A stretch of DNA of 27,595 bases from the IMG/VR virus record IMGVR_UViG_3300047300_000804, positions 1 to 27,595 of that record; one strand, 5' to 3'. This stretch comes from a virus. The notes below the pieces were generated by a model. It was not told where the DNA came from. It worked only from the letters and a program-made list of their open reading frames with translations, and did not search any database. Below are positions 1,052 through 27,595 of the stretch, piece after piece. A program made the translations under genes and the position numbers. Position 1 is the first letter of the stretch, and each line of letters begins with the position of its first letter.

Positions 1052-1615
1052 TTAGCTTGGTAGATAGTCTCTAAAGAAGAAAATAAAATTAAATCGACGC
1101 CCAGATGTGATCCGTCGAACCCCGTGCAGGTTTTCGGCGTTTCCTCGGAACATGATGAGGTCGCCTTCTTCTAGCTTCACCTGAAGGCCGTGGTGCTCGA
1201 AGTAAAGCTCTCCGCCCTCGTAGTCACTGTTCAACATGAGAATACATGAGTAGTGCTTCTCTATCTGAGGCTTACCTTCATAGTAATCACCGTCATCATC
1301 ATGCGCTGGATTGATTGATCCAGTGTCCATGATATTTCCATACATACGCTTCATGTCAAAAGTATGTTCCATGGTGTAGTTAGATGTGAAGTACTTAGAC
1401 GCCTTCTGAAGTACTACCTTTAATGGCTGCAAAAACGTATTTTCATCGTTTTCGATATCTGCGGGCGGGATAGACGCTAGTCTATAGCCTGGTCGAAACT
1501 GGTCCTTTATCGCATACCGCTCTATCCAGTCACGGTAAGCAGCGCACTGCTCGGGAGAGAGTACGTTTTTTACGAGCTTATAAGGTAGATTACTTGTCTC
1601 TGACATGTCACTCAT
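1052..1615 (-). CDS. 2OG-Fe(II) dioxygenase, prolyl-4-hydroxylase-like
   Basis: A 187-residue double-stranded beta-helix oxygenase that should hydroxylate its substrate using 2-oxoglutarate, O2 and Fe(II). The iron triad is visible: H105-D-D107 (in NPAHDDDGDYY) and H164 (ENLHGV). The 2OG-binding Arg is R173 or R174 in ITSGRRFNF. The usual GGELYF (134-139) and GDLIMF (151-156) strands are present. This arrangement resembles prolyl/lysyl hydroxylase-type phage enzymes (P4Hc). It starts at ATG 1615, 26 bases from the divergent carbamoyltransferase gene, and precedes the GT8 gene by one base. Co-transcription with a glycosyltransferase suggests that it makes the hydroxyl group that is then glycosylated. 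That functional link is inference. Confidence 0.9.
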   Translation of the reverse strand: MSDMSETSNLPYKLVKNVLSPEQCAAYRDWIERYAIKDQFRPGYRLASIPPADIENDENTFLQPLKVVLQKASKYFTSNYTMEHTFDMKRMYGNIMDTGSINPAHDDDGDYYEGKPQIEKHYSCILMLNSDYEGGELYFEHHGLQVKLEEGDLIMFRGNAENLHGVRRITSGRRFNFIFFFRDYLPS

Positions 1616-1625
1616 TCTACCAGTT

Positions 1626-1642
1626 GGTATAGACTTTTAGAG
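1626..1642 (+). promoter_or_regulatory. Probable near-leaderless promoter of the carbamoyltransferase gene
   Basis: The 26-base gap between divergent genes contains TTGGTATAGA: a -10-like TATAGA at 1628-1633, preceded by a TGG extended element. Only 8 bases separate the hexamer from the GTG start at 1642, leaving room for a leader of about two bases. No Shine-Dalgarno is present. The same TTGGTATA word precedes the GT8 gene at 24675. Confidence 0.4.
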
Positions 1643-3084
1643 TGAGGATCTTAGGTATAAATGAAACGTCGCATGATGCTGCTGTTTGCGTTATTGAAGA
1701 TGGTGCTATACTTTTCGCTGCTCACGCGGAGAGATACTCCAAAAAGAAAAATGACTGGTACACGAATAGCGAGATTCTTTCAGAGGCGCTGAAATACGGT
1801 AAGCCAGATAAAATTGCCTACTATGAGGATCGCTGGCTTAAGAAGTACCGAATATGGAAACATGGCGGACTAGGCGGGGGAAGGCCATTCTATAAAAGCT
1901 TCCCTCTACTAAAAGACGTTCCTACGTATGTCGCGTACCATCATCACTCTCATGCTGCAGCTGGATACTATACATCTCCGTTTGATGAAGCTGCTGTAGT
2001 TGTTATTGACGCTATTGGTGAATTTACTACTACATCTATATGGCATGGTAAGGGTAACTCCCTAAGGCAGGTTAAACGCTGGAAGTATCCGTTCAGCTTT
2101 GGTCTCTTCTACTCTGCCTTTACTAAGTTAATTGGGCTTAAGCCAAATGAAGAAGAATATATTCTCATGGGGATGGCTGCTTATGGTGATGCTGATCGAT
2201 ACTCGAAGAAAGTAAATGACTACTTCCCCTGGGTATCCAAGCAGAAATATAACTTCCACGCTGGCATAACCGACTGGGATGAGCCAATTGATGATCGAGC
2301 TAAGTTCGATATCGCTGCTGCAGTCCAGAGAGTATATGAAGCTAGACTCTGGGATTTAATGTGCCATACAAAGATGTCATTAATTCCTGGAGTCGAGAAT
2401 TTAGTATTCATGGGAGGCTGTGCGCTAAACAGTAAAGCTAATACGATGCTGTGGAAAATCTATAAAGATGTGTGGATTATGCCAAATCCTGGTGATGCTG
2501 GCTCGGCGCTAGGTGCTGCGGCTACAGTCTTTGAAGAGAAACTTAACTGGAAAGGCCCCTACTTGGGGTCCGACATCCCTGGTGACTACCCTGTAGACAA
2601 AATAATAGACGCCCTTATGGATGGAAAGATTGCCGCTGTAGCTAGTGGTAGAGCTGAATATGGTCCGAGGGCACTTGGTAACCGCAGTATATTGGCAGAC
2701 CCTAGAGATCCAGAGATCAAAGACTTGGTCAATGATGTTAAGCAGCGTGAGAGGTTTAGGCCATTTGCCCCTGTAGTGATGGAGGAGTATGCAAGTGAAT
2801 GGTTTGATATGGCGTATACATCTCCATATATGCAATACACTCCGAAATGCTTAAAGCCTAACTTGATCCCTTCGGTAGTCCATCGTGATGGGACATCTAG
2901 AGTACAGACTGTTAATAAGTCGCAGCATCCTGGGCTGTATGAAGTGCTGCAACGATGGTATGAGTTGACTGGTGTTCCAGTTCTTTTAAACACCAGCTTA
3001 AATATAAAAGGCAGCCCTATGGTGAATGACCTAGACGATGCTCGTGATTGGGAGAAGCTATATGGGAAGAGGGTTATCACATGA
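1642..3084 (+). CDS. NodU/TobZ-family carbamoyltransferase
   Basis: Transfers a carbamoyl group from carbamoyl phosphate, via carbamoyl-adenylate, to a hydroxyl of a sugar or other small moiety. Visible marks: N-terminal MRILGINETSHDAAVCVIEDG (Kae1-like ASKHA fold), the metal-binding His cluster YHHHSHAAAGYY (99-110), GMAAYG (177-182), GGCALNSKAN (258-267), and the C-terminal nucleotide/carbamoyl block GRAEYGPRALGNRSI (336-350) followed by RFRPFAPVV. At 480 residues it is shorter than NodU (about 560), lacking some C-terminal residues after the NTSLNIKGSPMV strand. GTG start; the stop overlaps the next ATG. One phage-encoded member of this family is reported to carbamoylate 5-hydroxymethylcytosine in DNA. 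Here a sugar substrate is equally possible because glycosyltransferases are nearby. Confidence 0.92.
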   Translation: MRILGINETSHDAAVCVIEDGAILFAAHAERYSKKKNDWYTNSEILSEALKYGKPDKIAYYEDRWLKKYRIWKHGGLGGGRPFYKSFPLLKDVPTYVAYHHHSHAAAGYYTSPFDEAAVVVIDAIGEFTTTSIWHGKGNSLRQVKRWKYPFSFGLFYSAFTKLIGLKPNEEEYILMGMAAYGDADRYSKKVNDYFPWVSKQKYNFHAGITDWDEPIDDRAKFDIAAAVQRVYEARLWDLMCHTKMSLIPGVENLVFMGGCALNSKANTMLWKIYKDVWIMPNPGDAGSALGAAATVFEEKLNWKGPYLGSDIPGDYPVDKIIDALMDGKIAAVASGRAEYGPRALGNRSILADPRDPEIKDLVNDVKQRERFRPFAPVVMEEYASEWFDMAYTSPYMQYTPKCLKPNLIPSVVHRDGTSRVQTVNKSQHPGLYEVLQRWYELTGVPVLLNTSLNIKGSPMVNDLDDARDWEKLYGKRVIT

Positions 3085-3182
3085 GCACTGCCATCATGTA
3101 CTACATAGAGAAACTATGTAAGTACATAAAAACTAAACTGTCTTCAACTAAAAATAAAAAGAAAAAGGACTATATCTACTAA
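3081..3182 (+). CDS. 33-residue Lys/Tyr-rich small protein
   Basis: A short frame that is open from ATG 3081, overlapping the carbamoyltransferase TGA by four bases (ATGA), to TAA 3180-3182, which overlaps the next ATG by one base (TAATG). Both junctions are the type used by accepted genes throughout this window, which is the main evidence for translation. The product begins MSTAIMYYIEKLCKYIKTKL and ends with a run of seven basic residues among nine (KNKKKKD), so it has an amphipathic N-terminal helix and a basic tail. No family is recognised. It could bind nucleic acid or membranes, or simply couple translation of its neighbours. Confidence 0.6.
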   Translation: MSTAIMYYIEKLCKYIKTKLSSTKNKKKKDYIY

Positions 3183-3826
3183 TGAAGAGCTACTCTAAGC
3201 CAGGGCCTAACGGGGAGACTGGTGAGCAAATGCCCCCTATATATGATGGGTCAAATGATCATGAGGAGAGGAAGGTAGACCTACTTAGCGGAGTCATCAG
3301 TCAATCAGAGGCAGATGCACTATTGGAATTCATACTAAATAAATTTGCTAAAAGTGCTAGCACTACCTCTATACCTTTAAGTTATAGGCCTGAAGATTGG
3401 GATGTCAACGGGGTAATAGATAAAATTCATAATGTAGCTAAGGCTTACATACATGATACCTATCCAATTAAAGGTGACTTAAACCCTAGAAGCTTTACGT
3501 TACTTAAGACTGATGATGGTAGGACTTACTCAGAGACTTATGGTAAGTATCGAAATGGTAATGAGATTCTCTACACTGCAGTAGTAACTCCAATCTCTCC
3601 TGCTGAGTACTATTCTGGAGAGACTCTGTACTCAGTTAATGGTGAGGGGTTGCGCCCTAATCCTTGCGACATGCTAGTTCATCGAAATGAACGCCTCAAT
3701 ACTTGGGAGATTGTCGAAGTGCTCACTGGGGTTAGGTATGACCTACTAATTGTATTTGAAGAGATAGACCGAGCTGTCTCGTACGATTACCCTATAAAAA
3801 CTCTAGAATATGGTGATGACTTTTAA
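3182..3826 (+). CDS. Degenerate 2OG-oxygenase-like protein lacking iron ligands
   Basis: Function unknown. The 214-residue protein follows the strand order of the P4H-like oxygenase at 1052-1615: SGETLYS matches GGELYF, PCDMLVHRNE matches GDLIMFRGN, and IVEVLTGVRYDLLIVF matches RRITSGRRFNFIFFF, so R185 would be the retained 2OG Arg. At the HxD position it has E118-T-Y120, and the distal His is replaced by W175. All three metal ligands therefore seem lost. It may be a pseudoenzyme that pairs with an active oxygenase, or a cofactor-free repurposed fold. It is translationally coupled on both sides (TAATG). The alignment was done by eye, so the fold is inference. Confidence 0.6.
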   Translation: MKSYSKPGPNGETGEQMPPIYDGSNDHEERKVDLLSGVISQSEADALLEFILNKFAKSASTTSIPLSYRPEDWDVNGVIDKIHNVAKAYIHDTYPIKGDLNPRSFTLLKTDDGRTYSETYGKYRNGNEILYTAVVTPISPAEYYSGETLYSVNGEGLRPNPCDMLVHRNERLNTWEIVEVLTGVRYDLLIVFEEIDRAVSYDYPIKTLEYGDDF

Positions 3827-5800: not shown

Positions 5801-5873
5801 GCCCTTGTAGCTCAGTTGGTAGAGCGCAGCCTTTGTAACGCTGATGTCGCAGGTTCGATTCCTGTCGGGGGCT
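5801..5873 (+). tRNA. tRNA-Thr (TGT)
   Basis: Complete cloverleaf. The acceptor stem GCCCTTG/CGGGGGC contains G-U pairs, the D arm is GCTC...GAGC, the anticodon loop is TTTGTAA (anticodon TGT), and the T arm is GCAGG-TTCGATT-CCTGT. The 31:39 pair of the anticodon stem is a C-C mismatch. No CCA is encoded. It is the first gene of the array. Confidence 0.92.
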
Positions 5874-5877
5874 CTTA

Positions 5878-5965
5878 GGTGGAGTGGCCGAGCGGCCTAA
5901 GGCGGCAGTCTTGAAAACTGTTGACGTGAAAGCGTCCGTGGGTTCAAATCCTACCTCCACCGCCA
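5878..5965 (+). tRNA. tRNA-Ser (TGA)
   Basis: Class II tRNA with a long variable arm. The acceptor GGTGGAG pairs perfectly with CTCCACC, the anticodon loop is CTTGAAA (TGA, reads UCN mainly UCA), and the T arm contains GGTTCAAATCC. Discriminator G and an encoded CCA (5963-5965) end exactly one base before the next tRNA begins. Confidence 0.93.
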
Positions 5966-6047
5966 CCCCCGATGGTGAAATTGGTAGACACGCTGGATTT
6001 AGGTTCCAGTGCCTAACGGCATCCGAGTTCGAGTCTCGGTTGGGGGA
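5966..6047 (+). tRNA. tRNA-Leu (TAG)
   Basis: Class II tRNA. Acceptor CCCCCGA pairs with TTGGGGG (one G-U), D loop contains AAATTGGTAGA, anticodon stem-loop is CTGGA-TTTAGGT-TCCAG (anticodon TAG, reads CUA/CUN), and the T arm is built on GTTCGAGTC. Discriminator A is followed by CGA, so CCA is not encoded. It abuts the tRNA-Ser CCA with no spacer. CTA is a frequent Leu codon in the neighbouring genes. Confidence 0.93.
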
Positions 6048-6051
6048 CGAT

Positions 6052-6128
6052 CGAGAGTTAGCTCAGCAGGTTAGAGCAGCGGACTCATAATCCGTCGGTC
6101 GTGGGTTCAAGTCCCACACTCTCGACCA
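6052..6128 (+). tRNA. tRNA-Met (CAT) (elongator-type; Ile2 not excluded)
   Basis: Acceptor CGAGAGT pairs with ACTCTCG including the 1-72 pair, so it is not an initiator. Anticodon stem-loop is GCGGA-CTCATAA-TCCGT (CAT), T arm GTGGG-TTCAAGT-CCCAC, discriminator A, encoded CCA (6126-6128). A CAT anticodon could also be lysidine-modified tRNA-Ile2 reading AUA. Because a true tRNA-Ile(TAT) lies 230 bases on, Met is preferred. Confidence 0.9.
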
Positions 6129-6151
6129 AACCTACACACACAAAGGATAGA

Positions 6152-6343
6152 ATGACTAAAGCATCAAAGCTTGCTCTTATGAAAAGCTTAAGTTGGCATA
6201 TCGTACATACTGGAATTCTCAGCGTTACTGTATTTGCGCTAACTGGAGAACTAAATCTAGTCGCTGGGATCATATCTATCCACGTAATTTCCGAGACAGT
6301 TGTGTACTATATACACGAGCGGATATGGCAAAAGCGTAAGTAA
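6152..6343 (+). CDS. DUF2061-type small membrane protein inside the tRNA array
   Basis: A 63-residue predicted inner-membrane protein. It matches the DUF2061 pattern by eye: KSLSWHIVHTGILSVTVFAL (first membrane helix, about 16-31), TGELNLVAGIISIHVISETV (second helix, about 35-52) and the terminal YYIHERIWQKRK, where the family usually has YYxHERxW. I chose ATG 6152, which follows AAAGGAT at 6143-6149. An upstream in-frame start at 6101 lies within tRNA-Met and is rejected. It sits between tRNA-Met and tRNA-Ile. The family's function is unknown; in a phage it could alter the envelope. Confidence 0.8.
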   Translation: MTKASKLALMKSLSWHIVHTGILSVTVFALTGELNLVAGIISIHVISETVVYYIHERIWQKRK

Positions 6344-6356
6344 CTTGCCTATTCGC

Positions 6357-6430
6357 TCTCTAGTAGCTCAGTCGGTAAGAGCGCCACTCTTATAAAGTGG
6401 AGGCCATGGGTTCAATCCCCATCTAGAGAA
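6357..6430 (+). tRNA. tRNA-Ile (TAT)
   Basis: Acceptor TCTCTAG pairs with CTAGAGA, D arm GCTC...GAGC, anticodon stem-loop CCACT-CTTATAA-AGTGG (anticodon TAT), T arm ATGGG-TTCAATC-CCCAT, discriminator A, no CCA. This isoacceptor reads AUA directly; many bacteria use a lysidine-modified CAT tRNA instead. AUA is common in the modification-type genes of this window. Confidence 0.92.
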
Positions 6431-6445
6431 CTAACAACTTCATAT

Positions 6446-6529
6446 CTCGGTGTGGCGGAATGGTATACGCAGCTGACTTAAAATCAGCCGTCGCAAGACT
6501 TGCGGGTTCGAGTCCCGCCACCGAGACCA
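6446..6529 (+). tRNA. tRNA-Leu (TAA)
   Basis: Class II tRNA. Acceptor CTCGGTG pairs perfectly with CACCGAG, anticodon stem-loop is GCTGA-CTTAAAA-TCAGC (anticodon TAA, reads UUA/UUG), variable arm about GTCGCAAGACT, T arm GCGGG-TTCGAGT-CCCGC. Discriminator A and encoded CCA (6527-6529). Confidence 0.93.
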
Positions 6530-6530
6530 A

Positions 6531-6603
6531 GCCTTCGTAGCTCAGTGGATAGAGCAAGAGCCTTCTAATCTCTTGGTCGTAGGTTCGATTCCTACCGAGG
6601 GCG
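6531..6603 (+). tRNA. tRNA-Arg (TCT)
   Basis: Acceptor GCCTTCG pairs with CGAGGGC (one G-U), anticodon loop CTTCTAA (anticodon TCT), T arm GTAGG-TTCGATT-CCTAC, discriminator G, no CCA. The 31:39 pair is a C-U mismatch, the same position as in the tRNA-Thr of this array. It decodes AGA/AGG, the dominant Arg codons of the SGNH and GT8 genes. Confidence 0.92.
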
Positions 6604-6606
6604 CTA

Positions 6607-6612
6607 TATAAT
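6607..6612 (+). promoter_or_regulatory. Isolated TATAAT between tRNA-Arg and tRNA-Asp
   Basis: An exact TATAAT lies 10 bases upstream of tRNA-Asp. No acceptable -35 is found 16-18 bases before it, since that position is inside the tRNA-Arg T arm. It could be an internal promoter for the last two tRNAs, or chance in an AT-rich spacer. Confidence 0.25.
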
Positions 6613-6621
6613 TTAATACAT

Positions 6622-6698
6622 GGTCCTGTAGCTCAGTTGGTTAGAGCGCCGCCCTGTCACGGCGGAGGTCGACGGTTCAAGCCCGTTCAGGATCGCCA
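6622..6698 (+). tRNA. tRNA-Asp (GTC)
   Basis: Acceptor GGTCCTG pairs with CAGGATC (one G-U), D arm GCTC...GAGC, anticodon stem-loop CCGCC-CTGTCAC-GGCGG (GTC), T arm GACGG-TTCAAGC-CCGTT, discriminator G with encoded CCA (6696-6698). Confidence 0.94.
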
Positions 6699-6702
6699 CC
6701 TT

Positions 6703-6774
6703 GGTCCCATAGTTTATCGGTTAGAACGCCGCCCTTTCACGGCGGTAGGACGGGTTCGATTCCCGTTGGGACTG
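6703..6774 (+). tRNA. tRNA-Glu (TTC)
   Basis: Acceptor GGTCCCA pairs with TGGGACT, with a G-U at 1-72. D arm GTTT...GAAC, anticodon stem-loop CCGCC-CTTTCAC-GGCGG (TTC), T arm ACGGG-TTCGATT-CCCGT, discriminator G, no CCA. Its anticodon stem is identical to that of the preceding tRNA-Asp. Last tRNA of the array. Confidence 0.92.
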
Positions 6775-6792
6775 CTCTGCTAAACTTGTATA

Positions 6793-7847: not shown

Positions 7848-8570
7848 ATGTCTCTACTATTTGAGCCCGTACATCTGCAGAATATTTTTACACCTGAGCA
7901 GGAGTCTGAGCTTAGGGGTGTAGTTGAAGAATACTTAGCTGACGACAAAAAGTTTTACTTTGATACCATTAGTGATAGAGAAGTACGCAGGTCAAAAAAG
8001 CTAGCAAAGTTCAATGAACTACTTGTTCCGCTAGCTAAAGAAATATTTAAAGATGAGACACTGAAAGCTACCTATAGCATTCTTCTTTCATATGACTCTA
8101 ATTCTCATCTGGTATTCCACCATGACACTAATGCAAATATCTATACGATTAACTATTGCGTTAAATCAAATGTAGAGTGGCCCCTAATCTTTGGTCGTGA
8201 AGAGCCTAGAGTGGGAATAAATATTCCCGAGGGCGAGGCTCTTGCATTTATGGGGTGTGATGATTATCACGGCAGAGAGCATATAGATAAGCCAGATGCT
8301 GAGCTTGTAAATATCATGTTCCACTTCTGTCCAGAAGATCATTGGTATTTCACTAAGGGGCCTGCTCACTTCAAAAAAGTGCAGGATCATTTTGAGAAAA
8401 CTGCTGATGTCCGTAAGGCTGCTGAAGACTTAGAGTGGATTAGAGATAATGAATCCTCTAAGTTATCTAAAGATGAATTGGCTGACTTAACCTCTAAGAT
8501 AGTTGAACTACGCTCCGAGGTATCAAGACTAGAGGCTATGCATGACCGAATTCAAGGAATGGTTGGATAG
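7848..8570 (+). CDS. 2OG-Fe(II) oxygenase-like protein with C-terminal coiled coil
   Basis: A 240-residue protein. Residues about 70-165 form a 2OG oxygenase core: YSILLSYDSNSHLVFHHDTN contains H91-x-D93, followed by the strands YTINYCV and WPLIF, GEALAFMG (129-136) and the distal His in DDYHGREHI (H141 or H145), then LVNIMFHFC. The usual Arg for 2OG is not obvious in the last strand, so the co-substrate contact may be unusual. Residues about 195-238 (ELADLTSKIVELRSEVSRLE) are a coiled coil, which suggests oligomerisation or docking on a large substrate. ATG follows the previous TAA directly, and its TAG overlaps the next GTG. The substrate is unknown. Confidence 0.72.
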   Translation: MSLLFEPVHLQNIFTPEQESELRGVVEEYLADDKKFYFDTISDREVRRSKKLAKFNELLVPLAKEIFKDETLKATYSILLSYDSNSHLVFHHDTNANIYTINYCVKSNVEWPLIFGREEPRVGINIPEGEALAFMGCDDYHGREHIDKPDAELVNIMFHFCPEDHWYFTKGPAHFKKVQDHFEKTADVRKAAEDLEWIRDNESSKLSKDELADLTSKIVELRSEVSRLEAMHDRIQGMVG

Positions 8571-9574
8571 TGCGTATCCTAGTTCTTGGATTCAATGAAC
8601 GTGCTAGAGAGTTAATAGACACTATTAAGCATTTCCCAGGGTATGGGCTGCACAACCAGGTATTTATCTACCACGTGTATGTGCCGCGTAACTCGCTGAG
8701 CTACGGGAAAGAGTTAGTAGTTGAAATACCAGATCCGCATGGTGATGGATATCGAACTTATAAAGACGGATTTCAAGCTCTTGATGAATACAGTACAACA
8801 ATAAGTAACTATACTCCTTGGTTATTAGAGCAAGCTGAGGCAGGGGCATTCACTCTTGTTGTCGACTTTCTGGAAAACTCTAGTGAAATAGACCTACTAA
8901 GAGAGCAGCTATCTGACGCACTAGTCTCTGGGTCCAAATGGCTATCTGCTGTAAATAGATCTAACCAGGAACTAATTGAATCAATTAGATTCTCTATCGA
9001 TGGTGGGATGCCTTGGACTCCAGTTATCTACAGTAGTCAGTTTCTAGCTAACGCAAATGATTTATGGGAAGCAGCTAGATTGAAGATGATTGAAAATCAT
9101 CGGAAAAATACACTCAGGGATATCGAGAGACGAAAGACTCTTGGATCATTTGATTCCCCGATATATCTGCCAGCTATACCGAAAGGTGACATACATATAT
9201 TATTTGATGATGTAGTCGCCAATAGTACGGACAATGTGATTGAAGATCCGTTATTAAAGGACTTCTTTGGTTGGCACCATACTCAGCAGATGGTTGCAGC
9301 TGCTTTTTTAAATCCAAATATAGTGATCGATACAGCTACATATGTTAGACATCATCATGGGTATATAGACGCTGCTCCAAACTATAAATATAAATTAGAG
9401 CGTATTGTTTCTGGAACTATGACGGTGCACACTGACCGTGGAGATATGGTTATATCACCTGATGACTTGCATAATTCTTATGCTTGTAGCTCTGAGACAG
9501 CGCCTAGGCATGTATCTATATCTGAAGGGGCCGAGACTTTAGTGTTCACATATAAGGAGAGCGATGCTTCTTAG
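8570..9574 (+). CDS. Rossmann-like domain plus cupin-like C-terminus, unknown
   Basis: A 334-residue two-part protein. The N-terminus (MRILVLGFNERARELIDTI) and residues about 95-150 (FTLVVDFLEN, then SGSKWLSAVNRSNQELIES) follow the order of homoserine-dehydrogenase-like NAD(P)-binding domains, though the glycine motif is degenerate. The C-terminal 90 residues look like a cupin: HHHGYIDAAPNYKYKLERIV, SGTMTVHTDRGDMVISPDD, LHNSYACSS. Cupins in sugar pathways are often epimerases or isomerases, so an activated-sugar substrate is possible. GTG overlaps the oxygenase TAG (TAGTG). The next gene encodes a similar Rossmann-like domain. Fold calls are by eye. Confidence 0.5.
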   Translation: MRILVLGFNERARELIDTIKHFPGYGLHNQVFIYHVYVPRNSLSYGKELVVEIPDPHGDGYRTYKDGFQALDEYSTTISNYTPWLLEQAEAGAFTLVVDFLENSSEIDLLREQLSDALVSGSKWLSAVNRSNQELIESIRFSIDGGMPWTPVIYSSQFLANANDLWEAARLKMIENHRKNTLRDIERRKTLGSFDSPIYLPAIPKGDIHILFDDVVANSTDNVIEDPLLKDFFGWHHTQQMVAAAFLNPNIVIDTATYVRHHHGYIDAAPNYKYKLERIVSGTMTVHTDRGDMVISPDDLHNSYACSSETAPRHVSISEGAETLVFTYKESDAS

Positions 9575-10133
9575 TGCTTGTGTGCTTGGCTATACAGACT
9601 TAAGTATGGAGTTTATCTCTAAATTTAAGGGACTGCCTTATTACAAAAAGCGTGACTCTGACACTGAAGGTGTCCGTATTCATGTAATACATGTCGAAGA
9701 CTCGGCTTTTCTTGAACGCCCCTACGTGTATAGATACCAAAAAGGTGACAACTACTCTAATGTATTAAATGACGGTGATCAGGGTAGTACTAGGGAGGTC
9801 TGCATCGGGAATGATCGAGACTGGTTACTAGAGTCTAATGGTCATGATTTAATAGTTGAGATGACCGAGGATCCAGATAAATACCTTGATGTTTTATTAA
9901 ATCTAATATCTAAAGGCTACTGGACTATTATCACATCTGATAAGTTTAAGACTCAATACCTGGCTCAGATCACCGAAGCTGCTAGTACTAGCGGTGCCAA
10001 ACTGTCTATAGTGTCGGACCTAGACTCGGTGTTCGAGCTATTAGATACCGAGTACATCACTAGGTTAGCTCATCATAGAAAAGTATTGATGGAGCAAGCT
10101 GCGCTAGCTAAACCTTGTGGATTCCCCGACTGA
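9564..10133 (+). CDS. Second Rossmann-like protein, possible paralogue of the upstream gene
   Basis: A 189-residue protein. It begins LSACVLGYTDLSMEFISKF, a strand-turn-helix like a Rossmann start, and contains DLIVEMTEDPDKYLDVLLNL, then SKGYWTIITSDKFKTQYLAQ, which parallels the homoserine-dehydrogenase layout in which a VVVE strand is followed by a helix and a TAnK strand. The upstream protein has the same order (LVVDFLEN, then GSKWLSAVNRSN), so the pair may be diverged duplicates forming a heteromer. The start ATG 9564 has a perfect AAGGAG (9554-9559) four bases upstream and overlaps the previous gene by 11. No catalytic residues can be assigned. Confidence 0.5.
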   Translation: MLLSACVLGYTDLSMEFISKFKGLPYYKKRDSDTEGVRIHVIHVEDSAFLERPYVYRYQKGDNYSNVLNDGDQGSTREVCIGNDRDWLLESNGHDLIVEMTEDPDKYLDVLLNLISKGYWTIITSDKFKTQYLAQITEAASTSGAKLSIVSDLDSVFELLDTEYITRLAHHRKVLMEQAALAKPCGFPD

Positions 10134-26352: not shown

Positions 26353-26748
26353 CTACTTTCTCTTGTTTAATAGTTCGTCAAAGTTTTTGACTTTAGTGTC
26401 TCCCAGATATGACCATGCGTAGCCTGTCGCGATCATTGTTTCATTGAATGATGTAGGTTCCCCGTCGAGGAATAACCATCCAAGTACTCGACCGTATTTT
26501 TCGGACGAGTCAGGTTTTTCTGTTTTAATCAGAATTGTTTCAGCAGCTGATAATCTTTGCTTAAGTACAGCCTTCGATTCCAGGCCGAGAGTCTTCTCGA
26601 ACTTATCGGAAGTACGTGACTCTGGGGTATCAATTCCAGCTAGACGAACTCGCTTGGTGATAGAGATGTCAAAACCTAGATCTATCTCTACATCTATAGT
26701 GTCGCCATCTACAACTGCAATTAGCTTTTTTACTCGATATTCGTACAT
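26353..26748 (-). CDS. Thermonuclease (SNase) family protein
   Basis: A 131-residue single-domain nuclease of the staphylococcal-nuclease type. The signature VVDGDTIDVEIDLGF (12-26) is followed by KRVRLAGIDTPES (32-44) with R35, D40 and E43, and EKYGRVLGWLF (83-93) with R87, the same residue set as the Ca2+-dependent enzyme. It has no signal peptide, and may degrade host DNA or act inside a virion or lysed cell. ATG overlaps the TAA of the Pro-Thr repeat gene (TAATG), so the two are co-translated, and the holin gene starts five bases after its stop. Confidence 0.92.
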   Translation of the reverse strand: MYEYRVKKLIAVVDGDTIDVEIDLGFDISITKRVRLAGIDTPESRTSDKFEKTLGLESKAVLKQRLSAAETILIKTEKPDSSEKYGRVLGWLFLDGEPTSFNETMIATGYAWSYLGDTKVKNFDELLNKRK

Positions 26749-27595
26749 TACTTGTTCCTCCTTGAAGCTGCAGAAGGTGCAGCGGCTGATGCAGTTGCAG
26801 CAATTGCTGAACCTGCGATTTGTCCTACGATGACAGCGGCAACGGTTGCCTTCTGGGCTTCTTCTCGAACCGCTGGGTTCATGTCGGCACCAACGTTTCC
26901 AAGTAGGTTGATGACGTCAGCGATTGCCTGAGCCCCAGGGATTGCTGCAAGCTCTGGGCTAAGAACAATGTCGTCCTGCTGAGCTGCGACCATAAGAGCA
27001 TCGAGTGCTTGCTCGTAAGCCTCTGATCCTGGCTCTGCAGTCTTAAAGGTCTCAAGAGCTGCCTCTTTTAGAGCTTCTGCTTGTGCCTCTGTTAGATCAG
27101 TTGCGACAATTGCTGTTAGATCAACTGCTAGAAGTTCTTCAGCAGAGATGTCAGTTGGTAGATCCTTAGCCTCTGTGATAACCTCTGGAGTAGGTTCAGG
27201 TTCAACAATAGGAGGTTCAGGTGTCGGTTCAACAACAGGTGGGACAGCTACTTCTGCTGTCGGTTCTGGTGTCGGCTCTACCGTTGGTTCTGGTGTTGGG
27301 TCTACTGTTGGCTCTGGAGTGGGAGTCGGTGTTGGTGTTGGCTCTGGTGTTGGGGTTGGGGTGGGCGTCGGTTCGACGGTCGGTTCAGGCTCTGGTGTCG
27401 GGGTCGGAGTCGGAGTAGGTTCAGGCACTACAACAGGGTCTGGAGTAACGACAGGGTCTGGTGTAGGAGTAGGAACTGGTGTTGGAGTAGGAGTAGGTTC
27501 AGGTGTTGGTTCTGGGTTTGGTACTGGTGTTGGGGTTGGTTCTGTGGTCGGGGTTGGTTCAGGGGCAGGAGATGGCTCTGGCGTTGTGGTTGGGG
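26748..27595 (-). CDS. Pro-Thr repeat stalk protein, 5' end outside the window
   Basis: The frame is open from the window edge through 27428 (an internal GTG, not the start) to TAA 26748-26750. At least 280 residues are visible. The N-terminal part is a low-complexity repeat of [16 protein letters not shown] and DPTPE units, as in extended glycosylated stalks. It is followed by acidic helices ([19 protein letters not shown], then [16 protein letters not shown]), IGADM-like [20 protein letters not shown] and a C-terminal hydrophobic helix ([17 protein letters not shown]) ending in RRNK. The layout suggests a membrane-anchored or virion stalk exposed at the surface. Thr- and Pro-rich segments are natural targets for hydroxylation and glycosylation. 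The 5' start, and any signal peptide, cannot be seen. Confidence 0.8.

Follow-up and report, generated by a model that had tools for sequence, protein, structure and literature searches.

What does a phage keep when it keeps a protein with the fold of an iron-dependent oxygenase and, apparently, none of the histidines that hold the iron? The question is raised by an intact open reading frame at 3182-3826 on the plus strand of the window (the whole stretch of 27,595 nucleotides analysed here), which gave a single match, within its own 27.6-kb virus record. Its product is called the pseudo-P4H below. The surrounding part of the locus is organised as follows:

1052..1615, minus strand: intact P4H-like oxygenase (H105-x-D107, H164, R174; PF13640, E 2.9e-8), the proposed partner of the pseudo-P4H
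1616..1641, no strand: 26-bp intergenic region (length from the coordinates), with the intact P4H and the carbamoyltransferase operon diverging on either side
1642..3084, plus strand: full-length Nol/NodU/TobZ-type O-carbamoyltransferase (PF16861, 1e-53; PF02543, 1e-41; phrog_1601, 4e-102; cf. novobiocin carbamoyltransferase, GdmN and TobZ)
3081..3182, plus strand: basic microprotein of 33 aa with stop/start overlaps on both sides and homologues in every W-type pseudo-P4H operon examined (W-type as defined below)
3182..3826, plus strand: pseudo-P4H, 214 aa, with a double-stranded beta-helix but lacking the 2-His-1-carboxylate iron triad (profile homology, AF2, Foldseek, family of ten members)

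Elsewhere in the window, nine tRNA genes (Thr, Ser, Leu, Met, Ile, Leu, Arg, Asp, Glu) are clustered at 5801-6775, and a long Pro/Thr/Glu-rich repeat (PTPTPEPT) at 26748-27593 on the minus strand runs off the end of the record.

Pfam and PHROG searches with the 3182-3826 protein returned no significant match, nor was its BLASTP alignment with the P4H at 1052-1615 significant (E 2.4). Since none of the three was significant, the alignment made by eye in an initial annotation, which had paired the two proteins at GGELYF, GDLIMF and the terminal strand, had to be tested. Single-protein scans by exact 8-mer patterns and by tblastn in named phages found no relatives of the protein because these searches were too strict, nor did any turn up when bacterial and archaeal genomes were scanned with A1. 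Relatives were gathered among IMG/VR phages via the neighbours of carbamoyltransferase genes, and in three phages an orthologue 51-52% identical to the target was located directly 3' of the carbamoyltransferase. A profile built from 48 intact P4H-like proteins of related phages, with the pseudo-P4H family left out, recovered all five distinct members then known (E 5.6e-10 to 3.7e-7, 27.5-36.7 bits); the target itself scored 27.5 bits, while 1000 shuffled copies of it reached at most 9.9 bits. Profile-profile comparison of the pseudo-P4H with intact P4Hs gave a probability of 97.4% (E 1.2e-11) over 171 columns, nearly the full length, and the resulting alignment pairs GETLY with GGELY, a strand with -D- with the GDLIMF strand, and TG-x-R, which bears out the pairing made by eye. 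On this sequence evidence, the 3182-3826 protein is homologous to the P4H-like 2OG/Fe(II) oxygenases.

Structure prediction and fold comparison had been proposed as the check on this assignment, with a structure lacking the double-stranded beta-helix as the contrary outcome. The AF2 model obtained with a 49-row alignment (pLDDT 80, pTM 0.75) combines a double-stranded beta-helix with two helices at the N-terminus; it is not independent of the homology, because 44 of the 49 rows are intact oxygenases and the pLDDT without the alignment is 33. In a Foldseek search of the PDB, the top match of the model was vCPH of PBCV-1 (5c5t; E 4e-10, probability 1.0), followed by bacterial P4Hs and human PHD2, with the N-terminal domain of vaccinia C16 (8ag3) at rank 9. 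The matches in BFVD were viral 2OG oxygenases, mostly from phages.

The pseudo-P4H family comprises ten distinct members, the target and nine proteins of other IMG/VR phages, all with an intact ORF and known from environmental contigs alone. It splits into a W-type (seven members, including the target) and a V-type (L032, L033, L058), and one motif runs through the whole family:

3386..3403, plus strand: RPEDWD motif (RPxxWDxxGxxxK), with R69, P70, W73, G77 and K81 invariant, absent from the aligned intact P4Hs

In the tree, 11 rows (the ten distinct members and one near-copy) form one clade (support 98/96) with two deep subclades, and the simplest account puts the loss of the histidines before the split of the subclades. 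Between L002 and L003, the closest pair, for which synonymous sites are unsaturated, dN/dS was 0.064 for the pseudo-P4H, 0.023 for the P4H and 0.030 for the carbamoyltransferase; the pseudo-P4H is under purifying selection and is not a decaying copy. The loss of the iron ligands would also be expected of a functionless oxygenase copy in decay, a reading contradicted by this selection, by the open frame in all ten members and by their descent as one old clade, and its probability is accordingly negligible. Measured from the window sequence, dN was 0.44-0.52 for the pseudo-P4H and 0.21-0.22 for the P4H, the pseudo-P4H thus evolving faster. Fast evolution is unusual in core subunits and common in adaptors.

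The state of the iron site depends on three short stretches of the gene:

3527..3535, plus strand: codons of Y116-S117-E118, the HxD position (His to Tyr, Asp to Glu) in strand bII (bridge alignment via V-type members; DSSP strand 116-118)
3704..3706, plus strand: codon of W175, which replaces the distal iron-binding His at the start of strand bVII (ungapped, +10 to R185; W invariant in the seven W-type members)
3734..3736, plus strand: codon of R185, where the Arg for binding the 2OG C5-carboxylate is still present (invariant in the 49-row alignment)

The segment from W175 to R185 aligns ungapped with intact P4Hs and keeps the +10 spacing, so the Trp-for-His replacement is unambiguous and both residues had been correctly placed in the initial annotation; at the R185 position eight of the ten members have Arg and two (L032, L033) have Lys. 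For the HxD, direct alignments disagree on whether the His corresponds to S117, E118 or T119, and the register is set by the V-type members, which in profile-profile comparison match both the intact P4Hs (99.1% probability, E 1e-18) and the W-type members (98.8% probability, E 5e-17). Bridging through them places H on Y116, x on S117 and D on E118, which fits the model, where residues 116-118 form a strand. Once the V-type members were aligned, the register E118-T-Y120, first proposed for the HxD and probably two residues off, was dropped. V-type members read F/T-V-E at the HxD and V or T at the distal His, and L035 reads Y-V-D at the HxD, with Asp instead of Glu. The iron triad HxD...H is absent from all ten members, in which no His occurs at either ligand position whichever register is chosen, and an acidic residue at the Asp position and an Arg or Lys at the 2OG position are kept in all ten. 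The earlier statement that all three iron ligands had been lost therefore holds for the two histidines (replaced by Tyr and Trp) but not for the Asp position, which is most likely the conserved Glu118. A substitute triad was sought by conservation; there was no invariant His or Cys in a five-member alignment and no invariant His in the ten-member one. As read from these alignments, the pseudo-P4H is left without any 2-His-1-carboxylate site.

The retention of the acid and of Arg or Lys in every member goes beyond the needs of a free scaffold, and could be explained if the protein were a repurposed enzyme whose new, non-2OG active site is built from Glu118, Arg185 and the conserved Tyr and Trp. 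However, the residues at both His positions differ between the subfamilies (Tyr/Trp in the W-type; Phe or Thr/Val or Thr in the V-type), which speaks against one conserved catalytic set, and we consider this explanation quite improbable. Among 129 P4H-like ORFs of the same contigs there is only one other truly degenerate case, a second, unrelated P4H-like protein at 8659-9237 on the minus strand of L074, whose HxD aligns to Asn (NNHR) and whose distal His and Arg are intact.

If the protein does not catalyse, the genes that travel with it may point to its function. Whole-contig searches covered 38 records, some of them fragments, of which 28 are carbamoyltransferase contigs without a pseudo-P4H in the nearby region. 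Exactly ten of the 38 contigs, and none of the 28 others, contained the orthologue of the 1052-1615 P4H (at least 308 bits, next score 220), and exactly these ten contained the pseudo-P4H (at least 235 bits, next score 62), although the carriers may all be related phages and ten out of ten are therefore not ten independent events. A search with the P4H alone, which is independent of the choice of the 38 contigs, gave 13 contigs, and the pseudo-P4H was present in all 13. The pair was also in step when carbamoyltransferase clusters at 95% identity were counted (9/9 versus 0/40), with a Fisher p of 5e-10 that is overstated because the carrier phages are related. On the carbamoyltransferase tree, in which a few of the tips scored as absent (L066, L051) are truncated contigs, the P4H/pseudo-P4H pair shows at least four gains or losses, each of them affecting both genes at once, and the clade of the V-type pseudo-P4Hs is matched by a clade of the P4Hs that accompany them. 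In L032, L039 and L041 the two genes are adjacent and divergent, 55 bp apart, with the carbamoyltransferase about 12 kb away. The spacing between the P4H and the operon is similarly short to that of the window in L005 and L023, and in L029 the starts overlap.

The P4H at 7848-8570, the other oxygenase considered, was rejected as an obligate partner, as four of the ten pseudo-P4H contigs, these four being 34-109 kb long, had no match to it. In the window it is followed at 8570-10133 by a pair of ORFs (334 and 189 aa) that overlap and lack a significant match in Pfam or PHROG, an order conserved in L002, L003 and L005. Together, the co-occurrence, the adjacency in contigs with a distant carbamoyltransferase and the absences of the 7848-8570 P4H indicate that the linkage is primarily to the P4H at 1052-1615. 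The initial annotation had suggested that the protein might be a pseudoenzyme paired with an active oxygenase of the window; this is supported, the co-occurrence favouring 1052-1615 over 7848-8570, and we infer that the two proteins bind each other. With slightly better than even confidence, the pseudo-P4H can be proposed as a non-catalytic P4H-fold subunit of the 1052-1615 P4H. As the two genes lie on opposite strands, stoichiometric co-translation is not implied.

The second set of neighbours is the operon itself. The translational coupling of the target to the carbamoyltransferase and the 33-residue protein, noted earlier, was confirmed by the overlaps of stop and start codons: ATGA between the carbamoyltransferase and the 33-aa ORF, TAATG between the latter and the target, and TAATG between the target and a recombinase. 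The slot 3' of the carbamoyltransferase is often taken by an oxygenase in other contigs (L009 4806-5426, L012 9152-9844, L014 11410-12054, L016/L018/L019), which is an intact P4H-like protein in some and a 279-aa protein resembling the TauD type (by eye) in others. The microprotein is a basic protein of 28-38 aa with the pattern YYxE[KR]...K[IV]K...[FY]IY-stop. Whether or not a pseudo-P4H is present, it is conserved in the vicinity of phage carbamoyltransferases (window 3081-3182; L052 9437-9532; L016 6547-6642; L035 5498-5590), and in most cases it overlaps the start or stop codons of its neighbours. It was considered as a dedicated partner of the pseudo-P4H and rejected because it also occurs beside carbamoyltransferases that lack one.

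This arrangement raises the possibility that the pseudo-P4H is a binding module of the carbamoyltransferase pathway, holding an acceptor sugar, nucleotide or protein or the enzyme itself, and that its link to the P4H reflects a shared pathway. The stop/start overlaps joining carbamoyltransferase, microprotein and target recur in the window, L002, L003, L005, L023 and L029, and intact oxygenases fill the same slot in L009, L012 and L014, both in keeping with such a role. Against it, about 40 carbamoyltransferase clusters have no pseudo-P4H, the pseudo-P4H of L032, L039 and L041 stays next to the P4H at a long distance from the carbamoyltransferase, and in L035 the carbamoyltransferase and the pseudo-P4H are separated by a ThyX gene and a further P4H gene. 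The carbamoyltransferase and the 33-residue protein are thus frequent but non-obligate neighbours, and we regard the binding module as possible but rather doubtful.

Regarding the substrate of the carbamoyltransferase, a phage enzyme identified by MetaGPA, of the same family as the operon neighbour described here and as Nol/NodU/TobZ, acts on 5hmC in DNA and is linked to a hydroxymethylase gene, and carbamoyltransferases near glycosyltransferases sat in unmodified contigs (PMC8670742). Unlike in this 5hmC context, no PF00303-type thymidylate synthase/hydroxymethylase was found in the 27.6-kb window; family 8 glycosyltransferases are present in the window, and the thymidylate synthase seen is ThyX, closest to Streptomyces phages. 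The glycosyltransferase 8 neighbours and ThyX make a sugar/glycan or a protein a more plausible target than a DNA base.

Returning to the reading of a non-catalytic subunit, the pseudo-P4H would have arisen among the P4H-like 2OG oxygenases, which these phages carry in abundance, and would have lost both iron histidines before the two subfamilies split; selection has kept it since. It most probably acts by binding the divergently encoded 1052-1615 P4H, aiding its folding, regulation or substrate finding. Its old cofactor cleft is probably plugged by the Tyr and Trp, with the 2OG-binding Arg or Lys still in place, and may bind a small anion, peptide or glycan. A bolder version, which we think unlikely, is an obligate heteromeric prolyl-hydroxylase-type enzyme, with catalytic and dead double-stranded beta-helix subunits from divergent genes, that would hydroxylate a substrate subsequently carbamoylated by the neighbouring enzyme, the microprotein of about 30 aa tethering the complex. 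These phages hold many P4H-like oxygenases without an assigned role, with seven to ten profile matches in each of several contigs. A conserved dead protein linked to one P4H offers a direct way into the control or targeting of such an enzyme, in the form of a small, testable gene pair. In L002, L003, L005 and L007, where up to ten matches to the P4H-related profile A6 were counted per contig, the 2OG oxygenases are unusually expanded.

A few eukaryotic and animal-virus proteins with dead 2OG-oxygenase folds are known, and no report of a stand-alone phage family of this kind was found in the open-licence literature. With the P4H-like dioxygenases (PF13640; vCPH, 5c5t) the pseudo-P4H shares the double-stranded beta-helix, an alignment over nearly the full length, the two N-terminal helices, strands of the GGELYF and GDLIMF type and the +10 Arg or Lys, but it differs from them in lacking both iron histidines and a significant Pfam match and in carrying RPxxWDxxG. 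One domain of vaccinia C16 has the P4H fold but lacks the cofactor residues (PMC9674614), and C16 binds PHD2 and blocks the hydroxylation of HIF-1alpha (PMC4298679). The resemblance of the modelled pseudo-P4H to the C16 N-terminal domain (8ag3), likewise a viral P4H fold in which the cofactor residues are not conserved, is a predicted structural one, and would suit a decoy that inhibits a host P4H or another host protein. C16, however, has two domains, comes from an animal virus and acts on a host enzyme, whereas the pseudo-P4H is a single-domain phage protein strictly linked to a phage P4H and never found alone in the searched contigs, which leaves the decoy as improbable as the repurposed enzyme. 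Of the features expected of a dead partner, a predicted P4H fold with lost cofactor residues, maintenance by selection and linkage to one particular intact P4H are found here. In this respect OGFOD1 provides a parallel, as the double-stranded beta-helix of its C-terminal domain has no metal site and packs against the catalytic one (PMC4396695); the pseudo-P4H is likewise predicted to be a double-stranded beta-helix without a metal site, although in OGFOD1 both domains are fused in one chain, while the pseudo-P4H and its P4H are encoded by separate genes on opposite strands.
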